Source: a virus. From it: DNA of 36,525 nt. The stretch is taken from positions 1 through 36,525 of the IMG/VR virus record IMGVR_UViG_3300037297_000047; one strand, 5' to 3'. Below the pieces are notes generated by a model that did not search any database, was not told the origin of the DNA, and was given only the letters and a program-made list of their open reading frames with translations. Shown one piece after another: positions 10,667-36,377 of the stretch (its first letter is position 1; every line of letters starts with the position of its first letter). Both the position numbers and the translations under genes were made by a program.

Positions 10667-12475
10667 CTAAGTTATAATTTCTTCTATCCAGTTGTTGTTG
10701 TCTTCATCATTAAAATATATATTTGATTCATCCCAAAACGAATTAACTTCAATTGTTGGGATCGTATAGGGTTTGACAAATCTCATTGAAAGTTTTATTG
10801 TGAAATTTTCTAAATTTTTCGTAACGCCTAATACTTCATAAATACCAAAATTACCCGATGTAGAACTAATTCTATCTGTAGGATTTGCTATGATAAAATC
10901 TGTTGGTTCTATATTGACGTAAGACCAATTTGTTGTTCGCTCAATAATATCGTCTATCTCTGAAGACAATTCCATTATTGTTTCTGATTTGTCGATAGCG
11001 TCTGCTAAAGTAGTTAACTCGGTGTCAAATGTTTCGGTTTTATATTGTTTGTATCTGTCAAAAGCTACATCTCTGAAGTCTACATTCTCATAATATACCC
11101 TTGTATCTTCGTCTATATTATGATTATAACCTATCCTTACACTTGTTAAATATTGAGATCCATTATTCACGATTGCAGGGTCATCAATCCAGTCATCTTT
11201 TAAAATTGTGTAATCGGGGTTTCTGTTTTCATCATATAGCCTAGCAGTATAAAGCCCGTTGTCCTTAACAAAAAACCTTATATCACAATCATTAGCAACT
11301 GACTCTATAGCATCAGACAATTTTACACTTGAATCGTCTATATATAAGCTTGTGTCTCTTGCGCTTGATGCTGCTAAATTCATTTCGTCTACGTCAAAAA
11401 AAGAGTCTAAAAATGGCTTTGTATCATAATTTAACATTAAATCTTTTAATATCTCGACACCGTTTTTTATATCTACAGTAAAATCAATTTTGACCTCGTC
11501 GAAATCTCCTCCAACATCACCAGACGTAAGATTAAAAGTACCTAATATTAAATTAGTGCTTGCAGGGGTTTTTGCGACTCCATTGACTCTTACCTCTTGA
11601 ATTGATCCAACAAAGTTATTAGAAGTATCCGCAAACAAAAACGTATATTCAGAAGGGCTTGTTTCTTCTTCATTTAAGCAATAACTAGGTGCGTTTAATA
11701 TCTTGCCATATGCAACAGGCTTTGCTTGATCATTATTGTTGTCATTCAAAAAAGGATAATCTAAGGTGCTTAGCAAATTAGTAGAAACCCCTTGCGTTAG
11801 GCCTTTTCTCGGATCTTGTATCGTCAAATCAAACTCTGCCCAAGTTCTTTTGTCATTTTCGATAAAACCAGTATAAACATCATCAAAGTCTTGGTATCCG
11901 TCACCCACATCGCCTACTTTAATCCGGCTCGACATCGCAAATAAGTTTCTTGTTCTCCAGTCGTCAAATTCACCATCATTATTAGCAAATTTTACTGAAC
12001 CTGATTGATATTTTAATAAACCATAAAAAAGCGGATCAATGGACTTTTTAAGATTAAAAATGCTGGTTACTCTAGGCTCATAATACTGGTTGTTGTAATA
12101 ATTGCTTGTGTTTGTTTTGTAAGAATAACCTACAGCAACGCCAATGACCAAATCGTTTGAAAGTACTGGCTCAAAATCTTCTAAATGAATATAAACTTTT
12201 GTTGTGTCGGTATCATAATAAAAACTATTATCAGTCAATTTGCAGTCGCTTATACTAAACGTTTGAGCCAAAGAAATATCTCTATATCTAAAAGAACTTA
12301 CATTATATATTTGTTCATTATTCCAATCGTAGAAACCCTGATTCCCGTAGTCATCAGTTAAAGCTAAAACGCTTGGAGTCAATGTCCAAAACCAGACACC
12401 AGCCTCATAATTTAGCATGTTTCTTAAATCAAGAGGTATATCGTATTCGAAAAGTATTATTTTATTTGTTGCCAT
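10667..12475 (-). CDS. Central tail hub / tail-tip protein
   Basis: 602 residues, starting at the ATG overlapping the upstream stop (TAATG). The order baseplate-hub-like N-terminus, repeated beta domains (FEYDIPLDLRNML, LLKYQSGSVKFANNDGEFD, VYTGFIENDK) and a late domain with strands like VTSVRIGYN resembles tail-hub proteins that sit at the tail tip of siphoviruses. Position between distal tail proteins and the receptor-binding protein supports this. No hydrolase motif seen. Confidence 0.65.
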   Translation of the reverse strand: MATNKIILFEYDIPLDLRNMLNYEAGVWFWTLTPSVLALTDDYGNQGFYDWNNEQIYNVSSFRYRDISLAQTFSISDCKLTDNSFYYDTDTTKVYIHLEDFEPVLSNDLVIGVAVGYSYKTNTSNYYNNQYYEPRVTSIFNLKKSIDPLFYGLLKYQSGSVKFANNDGEFDDWRTRNLFAMSSRIKVGDVGDGYQDFDDVYTGFIENDKRTWAEFDLTIQDPRKGLTQGVSTNLLSTLDYPFLNDNNNDQAKPVAYGKILNAPSYCLNEEETSPSEYTFLFADTSNNFVGSIQEVRVNGVAKTPASTNLILGTFNLTSGDVGGDFDEVKIDFTVDIKNGVEILKDLMLNYDTKPFLDSFFDVDEMNLAASSARDTSLYIDDSSVKLSDAIESVANDCDIRFFVKDNGLYTARLYDENRNPDYTILKDDWIDDPAIVNNGSQYLTSVRIGYNHNIDEDTRVYYENVDFRDVAFDRYKQYKTETFDTELTTLADAIDKSETIMELSSEIDDIIERTTNWSYVNIEPTDFIIANPTDRISSTSGNFGIYEVLGVTKNLENFTIKLSMRFVKPYTIPTIEVNSFWDESNIYFNDEDNNNWIEEIIT

Positions 12476-13554
12476 TAACAAAACCTTGCAATAATCATAG
12501 ATGCAAATGTAGATCCTGATCCCCCACTTGGAGATATTTCCATATCTATTAAATCACCTTTTTCAAGATAAATACAGCCGCTGGTATAGCTTATTTGAGC
12601 AGCCCCTGCTGTATAGGAAATCCCCAAAAGAACATTAGATATATTTCTTGCTCCATTAACTCTAAAATAGTGAGTTGAAGCAGTAGTTCCTCCTGTAGAA
12701 CTTCTCATACTCACATGATATAACCCTGTAACAGGTATTAAAACATCTCCTCCGCTTAATTGGAAATTAAAGCTTGTGTTGTTGGTATCAAAAGACAGTG
12801 AAGGAAATACACTACTTCCGCTATGGGCTTGATTGCCTTCTACATGCGCTATATATTTTTTGTTGTAATCATCAGACCAATTTTTATAAAGTTGCCTTTT
12901 ATCTGTGTAACTAGCAGTTGACTTTTCCATGCTGGCAATATGCCTATAATTAGCTAAAGCGCCTGATCCGTAATATCCTTGTTTTGAGTCAGACCAAACA
13001 GGAGCGGTCGCAGTAAATGCAGCAGATAAAGACCCTCCGACAATAGTTATTGCTGTCGCACTGGCTGGGATTGCCTGTTGTAATCCGGGGGACGCTATAG
13101 TAATTGTCCCACCGTTGCTTACATCTCCATCACCTGAAGTTATAGTATACTTGTTAATATCCCCAGCAAATTGAATTATGTCTCCTGCCAATATATCCCC
13201 TGTCCCTGCACTGGCCAAAGTAATACTTGTCGCGCCTATATTATACCCTGTGGCATCTGTAGTAGCTCCAGAAGCTGACCCAGATTGAGGAACTAGACAA
13301 AGATAAATTTCGCCGTCTGCCACCGTAGTACTTGTAACTGGGTCTGTAGTACTTATACTTTCATTTGAATCAAACTTATACAGCGCCCCGTTATTTTCAA
13401 CCCAACTACCCGCCGCTATCTCTGGTACTGTAGTAGTAAGCATTTCAGTTAAAGTGATTGACCCTTCTCCTTTAAATGCTTTATCTAGGGTCAACATTAT
13501 ATTGTCAAGGTTTGCGTCCCCTATTGCGTAATCACTAACAATTGTTCCTGCCAT
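12475..13554 (-). CDS. Tail-tip protein carrying a coat-protein insertion domain and a C1q-like domain
   Basis: 359 residues. The N-terminus (1-90) is a small attachment part. Residues about 92-172 are nearly the same as residues 226-303 of the major coat protein (shared GATTDATGY, SITLASAGTG, ILAGD, FAGD, SATAIT), about three quarters identical by eye. The C-terminal part (about 240-359) is C1q/TNF-like (VLIPVTGLYHVSMRS, FRVNGARN, YLEKGDLIDMEI). The coat domain in a tail protein is unusual. Start after GGAGGCCAGATAA. Confidence 0.65.
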   Translation of the reverse strand: MAGTIVSDYAIGDANLDNIMLTLDKAFKGEGSITLTEMLTTTVPEIAAGSWVENNGALYKFDSNESISTTDPVTSTTVADGEIYLCLVPQSGSASGATTDATGYNIGATSITLASAGTGDILAGDIIQFAGDINKYTITSGDGDVSNGGTITIASPGLQQAIPASATAITIVGGSLSAAFTATAPVWSDSKQGYYGSGALANYRHIASMEKSTASYTDKRQLYKNWSDDYNKKYIAHVEGNQAHSGSSVFPSLSFDTNNTSFNFQLSGGDVLIPVTGLYHVSMRSSTGGTTASTHYFRVNGARNISNVLLGISYTAGAAQISYTSGCIYLEKGDLIDMEISPSGGSGSTFASMIIARFC

Positions 13555-25888: not shown

Positions 25889-27269
25889 TTACAGCCTCTT
25901 CATCCTGGACTATATCTTCTTGCATTGGTGCTTCTTCCTCAATCACTATAGACTCTTGTGTCTCTTCAATGGATTTTTGTTCGTCCTTAATAGTCCAGCC
26001 ATCCGGGTACAATTCTTTATTCTGCATGTTATAGAAATATGTTTCCCAAGACATATATCCAGCTTGAACAGCTCCCATAAAAGAAGTCAAGGTTTGTGGG
26101 TCTACTTCGGATAACTCAAAATCACCGTTGTATTCAATATTTATTTCATCTGTGTTGCCGTCCCATTCGGCCATTACATTTGCAACTATTGTCATGCTAT
26201 CAGACAATGCGTTTGATATATCTGCAAGAGTGGCATATTCTCCTTGGCTTTGTATTCTGGAAGTTTCAGCACTTTGCACATACCTACCTTTCCCAGAGAT
26301 CAAAGATGTGCCCATAGCAGCCATTTGTTCTTCTTTGTGCACTAATTCGTCTTTAAGTCCAGAATCGCTTGCTGCTTCTAAAAACTTGGCGTCTCCATCT
26401 GTAGGCATTTTGGCGCACCCACCAACAGGAAAAACTTTAGAGTCATCCCACCCCTTAACAATAATAGTTTTCGCACCTGTCCAATGTAACATATTTTCAT
26501 AATCTGCACTATTTTTATAATGTCCCAGGTTTACATTGACAAAATCCAACATGGGCGAACTAGAGATCTCAAAAGTAATTCCCTGATTAGTAATAAAATA
26601 AAAAGGAATAAAATCCATTGTTTTCCCGTTCATTTTTGGAATAAATTCTCTAACCAAAACAAATTCAAAACTATTTGCGGAAGTTTCTTTTTTGATATAG
26701 TCTCTTACATAATAAACACCTTCTTCCAAAATAAGAACACGCCACTCGGTTTGCTCTTTGCACTTAAAAACATCTTCAGAGTCATTTACTACACCCTCAA
26801 GAACAACTAAAGACAATTGAGTTAAACCGCCGATAACCTGTGTTTTCCAATTTATGATTTCTTCTGCTTTGTACTGTGTTAAATAAGTCCGTCCTTGTTC
26901 ATCTGAATAATCTACAAGTACGCCGACCCTGTTTGTTATCAAAACTTCTTTTGCCAATTCTTTAGAAAAATAATAAAAAGATCTTCCTGTGAGATCTACA
27001 TTTTTTCTGGCTTCTTCTGTTATTCCCATTACTTGGGGCAGTTTTCTAAACAATTGCCCTATTGCGATATTAGCAGTTCTACCCGTGTAATTTATATATC
27101 TGGCTCTATCAAGATACGCTTCATAGCTCTTGTCATCTTGACCTCCAAGTTTTGGCAAATAGGTTGTGTTCTTAGACTTTACCGTGTCTTCACCCTGGAA
27201 ACCGTCTCTAGTTTTTTCCCAAATATGCACCCATTTTTTGTATAACTTGTGTTTATGGTCTACCTGCAC
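25875..27269 (-). CDS. Portal protein (DUF4055-like)
   Basis: 464 residues; GTG start after GGGGGCTGGTA, overlapping the terminase stop. Near the N-terminus it has NTTYLPKLGGQDDKSYEAYL and YTGRTANIAIGQLFRKLP, typical of DUF4055 portals, which form the dodecameric ring through which DNA is packed. The C-terminus is acidic (EETQESIVIEEEAPMQED). Lies in the standard terL-portal-MuF order. Confidence 0.85.
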   Translation of the reverse strand: MQVDHKHKLYKKWVHIWEKTRDGFQGEDTVKSKNTTYLPKLGGQDDKSYEAYLDRARYINYTGRTANIAIGQLFRKLPQVMGITEEARKNVDLTGRSFYYFSKELAKEVLITNRVGVLVDYSDEQGRTYLTQYKAEEIINWKTQVIGGLTQLSLVVLEGVVNDSEDVFKCKEQTEWRVLILEEGVYYVRDYIKKETSANSFEFVLVREFIPKMNGKTMDFIPFYFITNQGITFEISSSPMLDFVNVNLGHYKNSADYENMLHWTGAKTIIVKGWDDSKVFPVGGCAKMPTDGDAKFLEAASDSGLKDELVHKEEQMAAMGTSLISGKGRYVQSAETSRIQSQGEYATLADISNALSDSMTIVANVMAEWDGNTDEINIEYNGDFELSEVDPQTLTSFMGAVQAGYMSWETYFYNMQNKELYPDGWTIKDEQKSIEETQESIVIEEEAPMQEDIVQDEEAVSELV

Positions 27270-28468
27270 TACCAGCCCCCTGTTTGGATTACTGCACCTT
27301 TATTATGTCTCATAACATCCTCTTGAGAATAGCGGATTTGATCTATGCAATGATTGTGCTTGTCTTCTATCTTGTTAGATATTTGACCCGTTTTTGGGTC
27401 TACTACATAACTGTACAATCTAAACTCATCTATATGGTGCTTGCATCTTGGGTGCACAACTATTCGTTCATATGACCTCAAGTGCGCTATTCCGTCTTCT
27501 ATGCTTCCAGCTCCTTTCTTACAAGCTCTCATTTTAGGAAAACCGTTTCTTTGCATATATGATATAGTCTCCGGTCTTGCATTATCTGCAATTATAGGAT
27601 AATTTTGACTTTCTGGTATTGTCTTGAATTTATTTGGAAGCAAGTCAATATCAACTCCTATTTCATAAAACTCATAATCTATATAAAGAGTCTTGTCAAT
27701 CACAAAATTACGTCCTAGAGTAGTTGGGTCTTTACTAAACCCCCAGTCTGCACCGAAATAAAACCAAACATTTTCTGGGGCTTCAAACTCTTCAACAAAC
27801 CACTTCCCATAAAATACCTGGGCTTCTGAATGTTTGACGCATTGTCCCATCCACTTATGCAAATACTTCTCATAGTCAACACGCTTGTCATATTCCATCT
27901 CAGCCCTAAGAACTTCTGGGAAAAAAGGGTTATCTGAGTAATTTATTTCTATTCTTTCAACATCTTCTCTATCAGCTAAATTATAGTCTGCATGTATTGG
28001 GTCAGTCTCATCTGTGGGATTATAAGCAAATATTAACTGACTGCCTTCTTTTCGTATCGTTGGAGTAAGTATCTCTAAAGACTTTCTTGATATTGTGTGT
28101 GCTTCTTCCACCCAACAATAGTCTATTCCTTCAGTAGATTTAATGTCATTAACGTTGTTTCTTAATCCTTTAAATATAAACTCCGATCCATTAGCACCAA
28201 CTATAGATCTTTCTGTTATTTTGTAAAATGAACTTAGATTAAGCTTTTCTATTATGTCACATAAGAGCTTGTGAACAGAGTCTTTTATTGAATTTTGTAT
28301 CTCTCTAGTGCAGAGTATCCTTACTTTTCGCTTATAAGCTGTTATTACTAGAAATATAGCTATACCCCAGCTTTTGGCAGAACCACGCCCACCAAAAACC
28401 AGGATATAGCGCTTTACGGAGGTGTATAATGATTTGAGTTTGTCAGGTATTTTTATGTTTAATGTCAT
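27269..28468 (-). CDS. terL: Terminase large subunit
   Basis: 399 residues. ATPase: Walker A VFGGRGSAKSWGIA, adenine-motif-like CTREIQNS, Walker B GIDYCWVEEAH and coupling FAYNPTDE. Nuclease: FGADWGFSKDPTT, PIIADNARPE and IDQIRYSQED, giving the acidic RNase-H-like site. Packs DNA into the prohead; PBSX/SPP1-like group. It is close to the family's usual length (about 400-430). Confidence 0.95.
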   Translation of the reverse strand: MTLNIKIPDKLKSLYTSVKRYILVFGGRGSAKSWGIAIFLVITAYKRKVRILCTREIQNSIKDSVHKLLCDIIEKLNLSSFYKITERSIVGANGSEFIFKGLRNNVNDIKSTEGIDYCWVEEAHTISRKSLEILTPTIRKEGSQLIFAYNPTDETDPIHADYNLADREDVERIEINYSDNPFFPEVLRAEMEYDKRVDYEKYLHKWMGQCVKHSEAQVFYGKWFVEEFEAPENVWFYFGADWGFSKDPTTLGRNFVIDKTLYIDYEFYEIGVDIDLLPNKFKTIPESQNYPIIADNARPETISYMQRNGFPKMRACKKGAGSIEDGIAHLRSYERIVVHPRCKHHIDEFRLYSYVVDPKTGQISNKIEDKHNHCIDQIRYSQEDVMRHNKGAVIQTGGW

Positions 28469-28529
28469 AATATTCGCATTCCAGCAACCCTAGCTTGTTA
28501 GAACCTATAATAAGCCAATCTTCCACTTT

Positions 28530-28733
28530 TTACTTGAAACTTTGATGTATTAATCCTGTATCTAGTAAAAAATCACACTTTATACTTTTGCAATCTTTTT
28601 CTATTTCAACTATGGTGGTAGTCATACACTCACATCTATAATTTAACAATTTAGCACACTTTTCACAGTAATATGAATAGCACTCATAGCAAAAGTGGTC
28701 TGCTTTTTCTTCACACTCTTCACATTTTTTCAT
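28530..28733 (-). CDS. B-box/treble-clef-like zinc protein, 67 aa
   Basis: An N-terminal cysteine array (CEECEEKADHFCYECYSYYC, then EKCAKLLNYRCEC) that closely resembles a B-box zinc finger, followed by a short tail with two more cysteines (DCKSIKCDF). It lies in the gap between the terminase subunit genes. Such fingers in bacteria are uncommon and usually act in protein binding. Function unknown. Confidence 0.6.
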   Translation of the reverse strand: MKKCEECEEKADHFCYECYSYYCEKCAKLLNYRCECMTTTIVEIEKDCKSIKCDFLLDTGLIHQSFK

Positions 28734-28736
28734 TAT

Positions 28737-28946
28737 TCAAACCTTTCTCATAAGATCTTTAATTTGTGGCGAATATAGAATAATACAGTCGCCCTTTAAT
28801 ACAATTTCTCCTTCCCTTATACAATATTTACCCCCCCCAACCTCTAAATGAGATAAAAAAGCCCCCTTTAAACAATGTAAGATTATCTGCTTATATTTTG
28901 ATTTTGCAGCACTTTTATTATGGAATTTTATTTTTAAACTATCCAC
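28737..28946 (-). CDS. Hypothetical protein, 69 aa, GTG start
   Basis: GTG preceded by GAGTGAGGCTATAAATA. Basic N-terminus (SLKIKFHNKSAAKSKYKQI) then beta strands (GEIVLKGDCIILYSP). No family recognised. Confidence 0.5.
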   Translation of the reverse strand: MDSLKIKFHNKSAAKSKYKQIILHCLKGAFLSHLEVGGGKYCIREGEIVLKGDCIILYSPQIKDLMRKV

Positions 28947-28949
28947 TAT

Positions 28950-29150
28950 TTATAGCCTCACTCCAAGTTTTTTTAATCCTTCCAACTCCATTTTTCTTCG
29001 TTGTTTAATACTATATTTAGAAAAAATACCCTTTAGATATTCAATATTTTCAAAAGACTTAAAAGGCTTGGCACACTTGAAAGAACACACGCTATTCATC
29101 CCAAGCCTTCTGAATAGTTTATAAATATAATATATATCATTTTTAGTCAT
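28950..29150 (-). CDS. Hypothetical protein, 66 aa
   Basis: Basic helical peptide (NDIYYIYKLFRRLGMN, KYSIKQRRKMELEGLKKLG) overlapping the end of the small terminase gene by 8 bases. No family recognised; possibly a small DNA-binding protein linked to packaging. Confidence 0.5.
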   Translation of the reverse strand: MTKNDIYYIYKLFRRLGMNSVCSFKCAKPFKSFENIEYLKGIFSKYSIKQRRKMELEGLKKLGVRL

Positions 29151-29571
29151 TTATATCAGCCCCCACAAACTCAATCTGTATAGTACTAGGCAGCTTTTCA
29201 CCACCACTAGTTACATCAATAAGTTGCTGATCCATTCCTATATATCTTTCTAAAGCTTTTAAATATTTATCTCTATCTGCAGCGTTTATAGTTTCGTCAA
29301 ATGCTACCTTTTTTCTAGCTTCTAATATCCTTTGGATTAGCTCTTTGTCTATATCTCTATTTTCTTCTATGAGTTGATCTATTCTAGCCCTTATCTTAGG
29401 TTTTCTGTAGTTTTCACTCCCTATGGAATAAGCGCTGTTTTCGCTATAGCCTGCTTTAACAGCAGATTGGTATTTGTTCCATCTTGTTTCGGGGTCATTA
29501 ACAAAAGCTTGACAATAAGCTTCTTCTTTATCTGTTAATTTATTAGCTTCGCCTAAGTCTTTGTTGCTCAT
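29143..29571 (-). CDS. terS: Terminase small subunit
   Basis: 142 residues from the ATG (MSNKDLGEANKLTDKEEAYC); the longer frame would start at the TTG of a promoter element. LTDKEEAYCQAFVNDP, AVKAGYSENSAYSIGSE and KPKIRARIDQLIEEN are the typical helix-turn-helix small terminase pattern (YCQ..V....AA..AGYS..SA...GS..L..P.V...I). Binds the packaging site on phage DNA. Three small genes separate it from terL. Confidence 0.85.
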   Translation of the reverse strand: MSNKDLGEANKLTDKEEAYCQAFVNDPETRWNKYQSAVKAGYSENSAYSIGSENYRKPKIRARIDQLIEENRDIDKELIQRILEARKKVAFDETINAADRDKYLKALERYIGMDQQLIDVTSGGEKLPSTIQIEFVGADIND

Positions 29572-29628
29572 TCCTTGCTCGCTTTCATTTAGTGTATTCA
29601 CGTTATTCTTATTGCTTTTATTTGATAT

Positions 29629-29634
29629 TGTCAA
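29629..29634 (-). promoter_or_regulatory. Conserved TACTTGACA element, late promoter candidate
   Basis: Minus-strand AAAATACTTGACAATA with TAAGAA after 17 bases, upstream of the terminase and head genes. A TTTATC-AAAA-GATAAA dyad (about 29640-29655) sits just upstream and could be an operator, possibly for the neighbouring HigA-like protein. Confidence 0.55.
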
Positions 29635-32510: not shown

Positions 32511-32927
32511 TCACTTCATTAAACGTTTATCTATTTGATTACTTATTTTGCTTAGCTCTTTTTGATAATCTTTTAACATTATTTTGGCAACCTGGACATC
32601 ATGTCCCCAAACGCCTTTTGCTCCTAAAGGAATTATCTTTATTTGATATTTATTATTATAAGCTTTTAAGACAGCTTTAAACTTTAAAGTTTTACAAGCG
32701 AAAATATTGGTTTTGATTGAGTCTTTGTAATATAAAATGCCTAAATCTTTGTCAGTTTTAAAATTTTCGTTGTTAAGTATAGCCCAAAGCTTAATTTTAT
32801 CAAATAATTTTTTCTTATTGTAATTCACTTTTTTTACTATTACTAAATCTTTTTCTTTTTCATTAGCAACTTGAAAACCACTACAACTTACTGCAAACAT
32901 AACTACTAAAATAATTAACCTTCTCAT
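32511..32927 (-). CDS. Lipoprotein, possible DUF4468-like
   Basis: 138 residues from the ATG after CAAGAGGTGGAAAA. Signal peptide MRRLIILVVMFAVSC with lipobox AVSC, so it should be lipidated and membrane-bound. The mature part (VKKVNYNKKKLFDKIKLWAI, DLGILYYKDSI, KFKAVLKAYNNKYQIKIIPL) resembles DUF4468-type domains. Phage lipoproteins often exclude superinfecting phages. Overlaps the upstream stop by 4 bases (ATGA). Confidence 0.65.
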   Translation of the reverse strand: MRRLIILVVMFAVSCSGFQVANEKEKDLVIVKKVNYNKKKLFDKIKLWAILNNENFKTDKDLGILYYKDSIKTNIFACKTLKFKAVLKAYNNKYQIKIIPLGAKGVWGHDVQVAKIMLKDYQKELSKISNQIDKRLMK

Positions 32928-33079
32928 TTTTCCACCTCTTGTTTTATATTTTTTAATAAACATCCAATAGAGCAAAATTCTCTATCTATGCAATCACGAC
33001 CATTAAAACTTTTTAAATCATAATACGCTTTGTTTCTGTCTAACATTTTCATACATTCATCACAGTGATGTATTTTCAT
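32924..33079 (-). CDS. Small cysteine-rich protein, 51 aa
   Basis: I start it at MKIHHCDECMKML, after AGGTGGGG; the longer frame upstream passes through the tRNA-like element and is probably spurious. CDEC and FCSIGC form a treble-clef-like zinc site. Function unknown. Confidence 0.6.
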   Translation of the reverse strand: MKIHHCDECMKMLDRNKAYYDLKSFNGRDCIDREFCSIGCLLKNIKQEVEK

Positions 33080-33130: not shown

Positions 33131-33194
33131 AGACTTCTTAATTTTTAATTCCTTTTTGCTGCTTGCACCTCCATTATCTTTATAATATGTCTTT

Positions 33195-33284
33195 GGACAA
33201 GCCAGGAATCGAACCTGGAGAAACTTATAGCCGTTCTTTAAATTCGAGATCTTTTTACTCTGTTGTACTGCCAGTACCTTGTCC
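33195..33284 (-). ncRNA. tRNA-like element, 90 nt, no clear anticodon arm
   Basis: Perfect 7-bp acceptor (GGACAAG with CTTGTCC), canonical T arm CCAGG-TTCGATT-CCTGG and a D-arm-like hairpin GTAC-TGGCA-GTAC. The intervening 46 bases do not form a convincing 5-bp stem with a 7-base anticodon loop, though an AGAAC/GTTTCT-like variable arm is possible. No CCA is encoded. Could be a class II tRNA with a degenerate anticodon arm, a tRNA pseudogene or a tRNA-mimic. Confidence 0.5.
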
Positions 33285-33295
33285 ATATATATTCT

Positions 33296-33353
33296 AAAGC
33301 GGAGCGGATACCATCGGATGAGCAAGACCGCTTTGCCCGTTCATATCCGCCCC
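33296..33353 (-). ncRNA. Structured RNA element between ferredoxin and the tRNA-like element
   Basis: GC-rich. A 10-bp closing stem (33301-33310 with 33344-33353) encloses a 6-bp hairpin (33320-33325 with 33333-33338). A competing 7-bp pairing (33296-33302 with 33328-33334) crosses it, so it could form a pseudoknot or switch. It matches no riboswitch or ribozyme consensus I know. Confidence 0.45.
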
Positions 33354-33371
33354 TGCCTCAGGATAGCTTTT

Positions 33372-33554
33372 TTATTTTTCAAACGCCTCCCCGGGGCAAA
33401 TTTCTATACATTCACCACAGTCAACACACAAAGCTTTGTCAAGTGTTACATCATTATAGCTTTTGCCGTTTATCATCACATAGTCAAGTGCTCCAGTGTT
33501 ACACATTTCAACACATTGACCACACCCCAAACACTTGTTTTTGTCCAAATTCAT
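33372..33554 (-). CDS. 2[4Fe-4S] ferredoxin
   Basis: 60 residues. Two complete cluster motifs: C8-x2-C11-x2-C14-x3-C18 and C43-x2-C46-x2-C49-x3-C53-P. The proline after the fourth cysteine is present only in the second motif. A one-domain bacterial-type ferredoxin carrying low-potential electrons in anaerobes. Start is the second of two ATGs after AGAGGTTAATGA. It is next to the membrane peptide at 33558 and the structured RNA. Phage ferredoxins of this type are uncommon. Confidence 0.9.
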   Translation of the reverse strand: MNLDKNKCLGCGQCVEMCNTGALDYVMINGKSYNDVTLDKALCVDCGECIEICPGEAFEK

Positions 33555-33557
33555 TCA

Positions 33558-33635
33558 TTAACCTCTTTTTTTATAACTTTTGTATATAGTCACTATTGTT
33601 AGCAATGCAAATATTATTTCTATTATAATTGTCAT
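33558..33635 (-). CDS. Tiny single-helix membrane peptide, 25 aa
   Basis: Excellent ribosome site (GAGGTGGCAAA ATG). TIIIEIIFALLTIVTIY is one helix, followed by a basic KSYKKRG tail (inside C-terminus). It lies 3 bases before the ferredoxin start, so the two are probably co-translated. Confidence 0.65.
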   Translation of the reverse strand: MTIIIEIIFALLTIVTIYKSYKKRG

Positions 33636-34126
33636 TTTGCCACCTCTTTTTCAATCAAACGAATAATTATATCTCGGTAATTATCCCAGATATATGCAGC
33701 CTGATCATAAAGCATGATAGCTTTTTCTCTTTCAAGGGAAACCCACTCTTTAATTTTTTTTTGAATACATCCAAAAAATAAAACATCTTTTGTGAAAACT
33801 ATTGGGAAATTACATATTTGTAATGATTTTATTTCTTGCCCATTCCCAATAACATATCTTAGATCGGCATCCCTGAAATCAGCATTCTCAAGAATAGCAC
33901 CCCCAAAATTAGCACCCCTGAAATTAGCACACCCAAGATCAGCGTCCCTGAGATTAGCATATCTGAGATCGGCATCTCTAAAATCAGCACCCCTGAAATC
34001 AGCATCCTCAAAATTAGCACCCCTGAAATTAGCGCCCCTGAAATTAGCCAAGCTTCCTATTTTCCCTTTTGAATCTAACCATTTTTTATGATCAACTAAC
34101 ATTTCTTTTAATTTCTCTTTATTCAT
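33632..34126 (-). CDS. Pentapeptide-repeat protein
   Basis: 164 residues. Residues about 25-85 are tandem pentapeptides of the A(D/N)(F/L)xx type (ANFRGANFRGANFEDADFRG, ADLRYANLRDADLGCANFRG), which form a right-handed quadrilateral helix. The remainder is a C-terminal helical part. Such proteins can mimic DNA and protect topoisomerases (for example Qnr) or act as structural adaptors. Start after AAAGAGGTGGGGA. Confidence 0.85.
   Translation of the reverse strand: MNKEKLKEMLVDHKKWLDSKGKIGSLANFRGANFRGANFEDADFRGADFRDADLRYANLRDADLGCANFRGANFGGAILENADFRDADLRYVIGNGQEIKSLQICNFPIVFTKDVLFFGCIQKKIKEWVSLEREKAIMLYDQAAYIWDNYRDIIIRLIEKEVAK
33850..34060. repeat. 15-bp periodic repeats encoding pentapeptides
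   Basis: Repeated units such as CCTGAAATTAGC in tandem at a 15-bp period, matching the pentapeptide repeats. They are a likely site of expansion or recombination. Confidence 0.75.
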
Positions 34127-34571: not shown

Positions 34572-34898
34572 TTATTTAAATTCTCCTCTTTTTTTTACAA
34601 AATCTGTCAATATAATGTGAACTAGCAAATTCAAGTCTCTGATTTCTTTTTCTAACACTTCTTTTAGTTTCTTGTACAATTCTATATCCATATCGATCAA
34701 AAAAGGGTTTGCCTTGTCTATGATTATGTCTTCTTTTGTGATAGACAAACTTTTGTATTTTTGACCTTGTATATAGTCTTTGATCACATCAACACAATAT
34801 GATTTTACCGACTTGAAACAGTCAGGATAATCATTTTTGATTAGTCTTTTCAACCCGTTTTTAGTTTTGTTGCTTATCTTTATACTTGCGGTTACCAT
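34572..34898 (-). CDS. Hypothetical protein, possible ribbon-helix-helix N-terminus, 108 aa
   Basis: Start after AGAGGTAAAA. ASIKISNKTKNGLKRLIKND resembles a ribbon-helix-helix DNA-binding strand-helix; the rest is helical (YCVDVIKDYIQGQKY, ELYKKLKEVLEKEIRDLNLL). Could be a regulator. It overlaps the nuclease gene by 38 bases. Confidence 0.5.
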   Translation of the reverse strand: MVTASIKISNKTKNGLKRLIKNDYPDCFKSVKSYCVDVIKDYIQGQKYKSLSITKEDIIIDKANPFLIDMDIELYKKLKEVLEKEIRDLNLLVHIILTDFVKKRGEFK

Positions 34899-35676
34899 TT
34901 TTACCTCTTTCGGTTACATAAAATTTGTTGTATTCTTGCCACAATTGGAATGCACTCTTAAACATTCTCCACCCGTGACATAGCTCTTTGTAGCTATATT
35001 TGACAAACTTGTACTCATAATTTCTATTTATTATTATGTTATATACAGATACTGGTTTTTTTATATTTCTTTGAACTGCCTTAGCATATGCTGCTAATTG
35101 CATTATCCATTCTTTATATTTGCACATTTTTTCAAGTTCTTTGTTTTGTGTTTTGTAATCAAAAATAAAAACTCTTTCTTTTGTTTCTATCATCAGATCA
35201 ATAGTTCCAGAATAGCCACTTCCTGTTATTTGAATTTCTGTATTAAAACCATTTGCTTTCAAAGCTACAATCCCCACAAATATTTCTTTTACAAGATCAT
35301 GCCCCAGAATTAAAGATTCCCTACCTACACTATCTATTTTGGGCAACATCAAAATACTATACTCGTTATTTTTATAAAAATTTACAATATTTTCCAAATC
35401 ATTATGAATTTTGTTTCCAAAATCAACTGCAGTTGTGTTGCTTTTAAATTCATTTTTTATAGCGATCTTATAACTTTCAAAATCGCCAGTATACATGTCT
35501 ATATCGTGATTATACGCTGCTATGGACAAGTGCCTGTCTATCTTCCACTTATTCAAATATTCTTTGTTGATAATTTCAAGTATAGTAGTCACAGAAGGTA
35601 CAAGATCAAGCTTTCTTGCTTCTCTCATTCCTGCACCTTCTTGAAATATTCCTTGTTTATTATAATATCTTCCCAT
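34861..35676 (-). CDS. PD-(D/E)XK nuclease, RecB/Cas4-like exonuclease
   Basis: 271 residues, ATG overlapping the ERF stop. An early H (DFGNKIHNDLENI), then GSGYSGTIDLMIE (catalytic D), FIFDYKTQ (D-x-K) and WIMQLAAYAKAV (Q...Y). This order is the RecB-like/PDDEXK_1 phage exonuclease. Together with the ERF annealing protein it forms a lambda-Red-like recombination pair. Confidence 0.75.
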   Translation of the reverse strand: MGRYYNKQGIFQEGAGMREARKLDLVPSVTTILEIINKEYLNKWKIDRHLSIAAYNHDIDMYTGDFESYKIAIKNEFKSNTTAVDFGNKIHNDLENIVNFYKNNEYSILMLPKIDSVGRESLILGHDLVKEIFVGIVALKANGFNTEIQITGSGYSGTIDLMIETKERVFIFDYKTQNKELEKMCKYKEWIMQLAAYAKAVQRNIKKPVSVYNIIINRNYEYKFVKYSYKELCHGWRMFKSAFQLWQEYNKFYVTERGKNGNRKYKDKQQN

Positions 35677-36377
35677 TAGTATGGTATCTCATCAATTTCT
35701 TTTTGGGTAACAACTGTTCCGTTAAACTGCTCTTGTATCTTTTTTGATTCTGGAATCCCTTCACCTGCTTGTATTTGCTTTTTTCTTTCTTCAAAAATTT
35801 TGATTGCGGCGTTTCTTTGTTTTTCTGAAACAAAATGTTGTTCTAAATCACTGAAATATTTTACCATAGCTTGCTTTGTTGTCATTTTTTTTAGATTTTG
35901 TTCTACTTCATCAAAATCTATTTTTATTTTGTTATTCTTTTTTTCTGGTTGCGTGTCATCTAGTGAGAGATTGTTTGCGTCTGTATCTTCTTCACTGCTG
36001 GTATTTAAAATAGCATTTAATCCATACCTTCTTCCAAAACTCAAAAGACTACCCATCTCTTGGTTAATATTTCTACCTGGAAATTTAGCAACCATAGGTA
36101 TGTGGCTTTCTATCCATTCACCTGAAATATGATAAATTCTTGTTATTATAACGATTTTGTCTTCAAAGTGCATTGCATTATGAACAGCAAACAAATTGTG
36201 TTTTGATAAAACAGGTTTTATCTTAGATAAAGAAAAAGGCAAGCTTGCATATCCATAGGTGTAACTACCTTTTTCGCTTTTAATTGTTGCTGTTTCGTTT
36301 TTTTCAATATTTATTAGCTCTTTGTTTACCCCAAGCAAAGCTGGAATTATTTTTTCTATTGTTTCACTAGTTTTCAT
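35676..36377 (-). CDS. ERF-family single-strand annealing protein
   Basis: 233 residues, start after AGAGGTAAGTA. The N-terminal core (YASLPFSLSKIKPVLSKHNL, HISGEWIESHIPM, INQEMGSLLSFGRRYGLNAI) is the ERF superfamily signature, the single-strand annealing proteins of phage recombination. A low-complexity linker follows. The C-terminus ends EIDEIPY, resembling the DDDIPF tip of SSB, which could recruit SSB partners. Operon with the nuclease. Confidence 0.85.
   Translation of the reverse strand: MKTSETIEKIIPALLGVNKELINIEKNETATIKSEKGSYTYGYASLPFSLSKIKPVLSKHNLFAVHNAMHFEDKIVIITRIYHISGEWIESHIPMVAKFPGRNINQEMGSLLSFGRRYGLNAILNTSSEEDTDANNLSLDDTQPEKKNNKIKIDFDEVEQNLKKMTTKQAMVKYFSDLEQHFVSEKQRNAAIKIFEERKKQIQAGEGIPESKKIQEQFNGTVVTQKEIDEIPY

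Follow-up and report, generated by a model that had tools for sequence, protein, structure and literature searches.

The window, that is, the whole 36.5-kb stretch of DNA analysed here, is a linear IMG/VR virus record with a genome GC content of 34%. PHROG and Pfam matches identified genes for the small and large terminase subunits (TerS and TerL), the portal, a Mu F-like minor head protein and the tape measure protein, together with SSB, a replication initiator, Erf and an exonuclease. The coat protein is related to the P22 coat family. The initial annotation had described a small siphovirus. The gene content does correspond to a small tailed phage, and because no tail sheath gene was found in the window, a siphovirus is plausible.

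Within this genome, a 60-aa ferredoxin is encoded at positions 33372..33554, where the initial annotation had placed it, on the minus strand. The reverse complement of this segment translates as MNLDKNKCLGCGQCVEMCNTGALDYVMINGKSYNDVTLDKALCVDCGECIEICPGEAFEK followed by a stop codon, giving a small protein that stands alone from start to stop. All eight of the cluster cysteines first reported are indeed there, arranged in two complete CxxCxxCxxxC motifs (C8/11/14/18 and C43/46/49/53) separated by a linker of 24 residues. The residue following C18 is an asparagine in place of the usual proline. The ribosome site claimed for the gene is also present, as a Shine-Dalgarno-like AGAGGT (33561..33566, minus strand) located 6 nt before the ATG. 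In Pfam, the protein matches 4Fe-4S families only, with no plant-type [2Fe-2S] domain among the matches. The E-values are 3e-13 for Fer4, 9e-11 for Fer4_7, 1e-10 for Fer4_9 and 6e-11 for Fer4_21, above the curated cut-offs (42.5 bits versus 27 for Fer4_7, 41.8 versus 27 for Fer4_9 and 42.8 versus 35 for Fer4_21). On the other hand, the score against the NCBIfam model for free ferredoxins, FdxA_fam (NF058577), is 38.2 bits, below the cut-off of 65. Codon adaptation of the gene is 0.730, for a genome mean of 0.728. Its GC3 of 0.37 is mildly above the genome mean (0.275), but with 60 codons the difference is not significant.

The structure of the protein was predicted with AlphaFold2 from aligned ferredoxins of phages and cells. 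The model (pLDDT 90.3, pTM 0.73) shows two short helices where expected and a predicted hairpin in the 24-residue linker. Foldseek comparison of this model with the PDB returned two-cluster ferredoxin domains as top matches. The chain 9g03_E, a free ferredoxin in complex with CODH/ACS, aligned with a TM-score of 0.89 by target length, the ferredoxin domain of oxalate oxidoreductase matched at 1.3 Å over 58 residues, and the clostridial ferredoxin 1fca was also retrieved. No protein of the viral structure library matched the model at an E-value of 0.001 or better. On the basis of the predicted model, a ferredoxin fold can be assigned to the 60-aa protein with confidence. Overall, the motifs, the Pfam dicluster scores and the predicted fold agree with the bacterial-type 2[4Fe-4S] ferredoxin proposed initially, and, judged from its sequence, window 33372-33554 is a real, intact gene of this type.

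The protein resembles clostridial-type 2[4Fe-4S] ferredoxins (1fca/1fdn, and the CODH/ACS ferredoxin 9g03_E) in its length, its two CxxCxxCxxxC motifs and its fold. However, the two motifs of clostridial ferredoxin are separated by 18 residues, whereas the longer linker of the phage protein carries the predicted hairpin; the asparagine after C18 is a further difference, and identity in the Foldseek alignments is 26-27%. A two-cluster domain is also common to the phage protein and the delta subunits of 2-oxoacid:ferredoxin oxidoreductases (OGOR_delta, OorD, PorD/KorD). In addition, the INxKxYNxV stretch of the linker resembles a Bacillota protein (L445) whose best-scoring model is OorD. Nevertheless, the phage protein scores 33.2 bits against the OGOR_delta model, below the cut-off of 125, and no gene for a catalytic subunit of a 2-oxoacid:acceptor oxidoreductase was recognised among the scanned ORFs of the window.

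The terminase large and small subunit genes (27269..29634, minus strand) are found on one side of the ferredoxin gene and the exonuclease and Erf recombinase genes (34861..36377, minus strand) on the other; all of them share one strand, and this arrangement puts the ferredoxin inside the phage genome. Phage genes therefore flank it on both sides, the arrangement looked for in an auxiliary metabolic gene. It is surrounded by small early-type genes, with the terminase genes about 4 kb downstream of it, and is not part of the tail operon. Its upstream neighbour encodes a pentapeptide-repeat protein of 164 aa (33632..34126, minus strand; PF00805, 1.6e-22). Its downstream neighbour is a previously unannotated ORF with a good ribosome site (32924..33079, minus strand), encoding a cysteine-containing protein of 51 aa that matches no Pfam family. 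Just downstream of the ferredoxin stop codon, a strong GC-rich hairpin (33294..33361, minus strand; -37.3 kcal/mol, z -4.95) has no match in Rfam. It is followed by a tRNA-like element of 93 nt (33193..33285, minus strand; z -2.8), detected by ARAGORN at a relaxed threshold only. The acceptor stem and T arm of this element are perfect and its anticodon arm is degenerate; it is either a degenerate tRNA or a tRNA-like RNA. Comparison of the non-coding stretch near the ferredoxin with Rfam, phages and plasmids gave nothing of note. The ferredoxin gene is solitary: no ribonucleotide reductase (RNR), radical-SAM activase, ferredoxin reductase or other electron partner was recognised among the scanned ORFs of the window.

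A search for homologues in related phages, suggested at the outset as a check, returned none. An exact-peptide search of IMG/VR with the ferredoxin found no homologue, and Fer4 models detected no ferredoxin over the Pfam cut-off in any of 50 TerL-related phage records, nor in any of 32 coat-, portal- or TerL-related records. The related records include L163, with 13 genes in common with the window, and L245, with 10; many are fragments, and absence from them is not proof of absence. Because no homologue was found in the related records checked, the ferredoxin does not appear to be conserved in the lineage. With no orthologue found, the selection that the initial annotation read from the cysteines and the ribosome site is a supposition. 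IMG/VR searches with Erf and the exonuclease likewise gave no relatives. As for a cellular donor, a peptide scan, sampled genomes of four bacterial phyla and a few single genomes contained no close one. In these sampled, non-exhaustive searches, the best cellular identity was about 50%, mostly with domains of larger enzymes, hence no donor is obvious and no host is indicated. Of the stand-alone matches, a methanogen ferredoxin (L109, 47%) and the Bacillota protein L445, which resembles 2-oxoglutarate oxidoreductase delta subunits, come closest.

Among 50,697 GenBank phage records, eight matches to the ferredoxin search were obtained, and all eight were rejected as counterparts. Four are enzyme domains (RnfB, [FeFe]-hydrogenase, a radical-SAM activase and a sulfite-reductase-like domain) on mislabelled bacterial scaffolds, a fifth is an NdhI-type protein from a marine cyanophage relative, cyanophage genes annotated as ndhI account for two others, and the last (H5) scores the same as the sulfite-reductase-like match. 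The four scaffolds, filed as phage under MT835490, MT836430, MT839176 and OR845778, appear to be bacterial chromosome fragments; they contain an Rnf cluster, ATP synthase with [FeFe] hydrogenase, a radical-SAM activase and a sulfite-reductase-like gene.

Scans of IMG/VR DNA with patterns for two-motif ferredoxins gave a different picture. Among the matches listed, stand-alone 2[4Fe-4S] ferredoxins were found on at least about a dozen contigs, in at least three gene contexts in unrelated phages. In a first context, seen in two related phages (L302:8575-11205 and L322:1695-5984), a gene with class II RNR domains (PF02867, PF21995) stands between two ferredoxins of 57 aa that differ from each other. 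In a second one, the ferredoxin adjoins ThyA (L289:2100-2264 and L312:4299-4463), with dUTPase, thioredoxin, an NrdG-like radical SAM protein and NRDD encoded nearby; L289 and L312 look like two contigs of one large phage. In the third, at least six contractile-tail contigs carry a ferredoxin between the tail sheath gene and a tail tube-like gene (L259:4480-4695, L273:2096-2308, L277:10627-10839, L357:5095-5343, L377:3412-3684 and L390:4092-4258). The tube assignment relies on position and sequence likeness; the tube-like ORF of L277 has no Pfam match, and L390 stops just past the ferredoxin. These tail-operon copies, divergent among the six contigs, represent a conserved ferredoxin that may be structural. 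PHROG matches support the phage origin of the ferredoxin contigs. L322 has a DNA polymerase and an exonuclease, L312 a DNA polymerase and L302 an endolysin, and tape measure and terminase genes are among the matches as well.

The window protein and these phage-borne ferredoxins (those of L265, L289/L312, L302, L322 and the L259/L277/L357 type) have the same domain. However, it is only 29-37% identical to the RNR-linked, ThyA-linked and tail-operon copies, their gene contexts differ, and the 24-residue linker is absent from the other phage ferredoxins among the matches listed, which all have shorter ones. Direct orthology with the tail-operon or RNR-linked ferredoxins was rejected on this low identity and on linker length. 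In a weakly resolved tree of 45 short sequences, the window ferredoxin does not group with the tail-operon or other phage copies.

Cyanophage PetF, likewise a small phage-borne electron carrier, is a plant-type [2Fe-2S] ferredoxin, whereas the window protein has two [4Fe-4S] motifs. The statement that phage ferredoxins are mostly plant-type and from cyanophages agrees with the literature consulted, whose examples are cyanophage PetF; petF was found in 44 of 153 cyanophage genomes (PMC10452541). Another phage-borne low-potential carrier is the flavodoxin of phage 0305phi8-36, which its authors predicted to reduce the phage RNR (PMC9405906). That carrier is an FMN protein of a large Bacillus phage with its own RNR, whereas no RNR was recognised in the window. 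Among the open-access papers searched, which included no subscription articles or preprints, none describing a 2[4Fe-4S] ferredoxin from a phage was found; this is weak evidence. A 2[4Fe-4S] ferredoxin in a phage is uncommon, as the initial annotation held, but not unique, since unrelated IMG/VR phages carry stand-alone ones.

We consider that the protein is probably a soluble 2[4Fe-4S] electron carrier serving host reductases, with dNTP synthesis as the likeliest sink. When infecting an anaerobic or facultatively anaerobic host, the phage would make this small soluble ferredoxin as an additional electron carrier. Low-potential electrons would reach the ferredoxin from host enzymes such as 2-oxoacid:ferredoxin oxidoreductases or hydrogenases, and would be passed on to host reductases needed by the phage; the most likely recipient is anaerobic dNTP synthesis, through an RNR or the radical-SAM activase of that enzyme. 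In this reading, we infer that the protein is loaded with clusters and redox-active, as well as its partners, the physiology of the host and any benefit. The redirection of host low-potential electrons, already suggested from the sequence, is plausible. With moderate to low confidence, our analysis points to dNTP synthesis via host enzymes as the sink; it is the most reasonable one because of the RNR contexts in other phages and of the flavodoxin-RNR proposal (PMC9405906). Against such a carrier, no partner was recognised in the window, related phages gave no homologue, and the FdxA_fam score is below its cut-off. A broader and rather doubtful extension is that phages of anaerobes have repeatedly and independently gained 2[4Fe-4S] ferredoxins as electron donors for dNTP synthesis, the window copy being a bare member that would feed a host class II/III RNR or activase. 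The known phage electron carriers are mainly photosynthesis genes of cyanophages, plus one flavodoxin. Finding a ferredoxin of bacterial type in a small, ordinary phage would extend them to low-potential, probably anaerobic, metabolism, and the recurrence of such genes next to RNR genes elsewhere among phages offers a concrete and testable proposal for their role.

The gene could instead be a moron, a hitch-hiking host gene recently captured and drifting, without benefit yet; the ferredoxin might then work while the phage does not depend on it. Its absence from all related phage records checked, its GC3 slightly above the genome mean and the lack of a partner gene in the window speak for such a capture. 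However, the frame is intact with all ligands, its own ribosome site and phage-like codon usage, and no near-identical cellular donor was found in the sampled searches; we regard this alternative as unlikely. It is more improbable still that the protein is an Fe-S component of the virion, with a role in its structure or assembly. Iron-sulphur proteins are known at phage tail tips, lambda gpL being one with such a cluster, and the tail-operon contigs have their ferredoxin gene precisely between those for the tail sheath and the tail tube. The window gene, in contrast, lies outside the tail operon and is kept apart from the tail-operon ferredoxins by low identity and by the weakly resolved tree. 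Finally, although IMG/VR contigs can carry host flanks (the pattern match in L292 looks like one), a host fragment or a chimeric assembly, which the initial annotation had named as a way to overturn its claim, is very improbable here. Packaging genes on one side of the ferredoxin and Erf/exonuclease on the other share its strand, and its codon usage matches that of its neighbours; a host flank was rejected on this gene order.

Apart from the ferredoxin locus, an ORF in the tail region of the window (12475-13554, minus strand) contains a segment 60-70% identical to regions that overlap coat genes in several relatives. This ORF also matches a PHROG major head family, which suggests a shared mobile domain, perhaps Ig-like.
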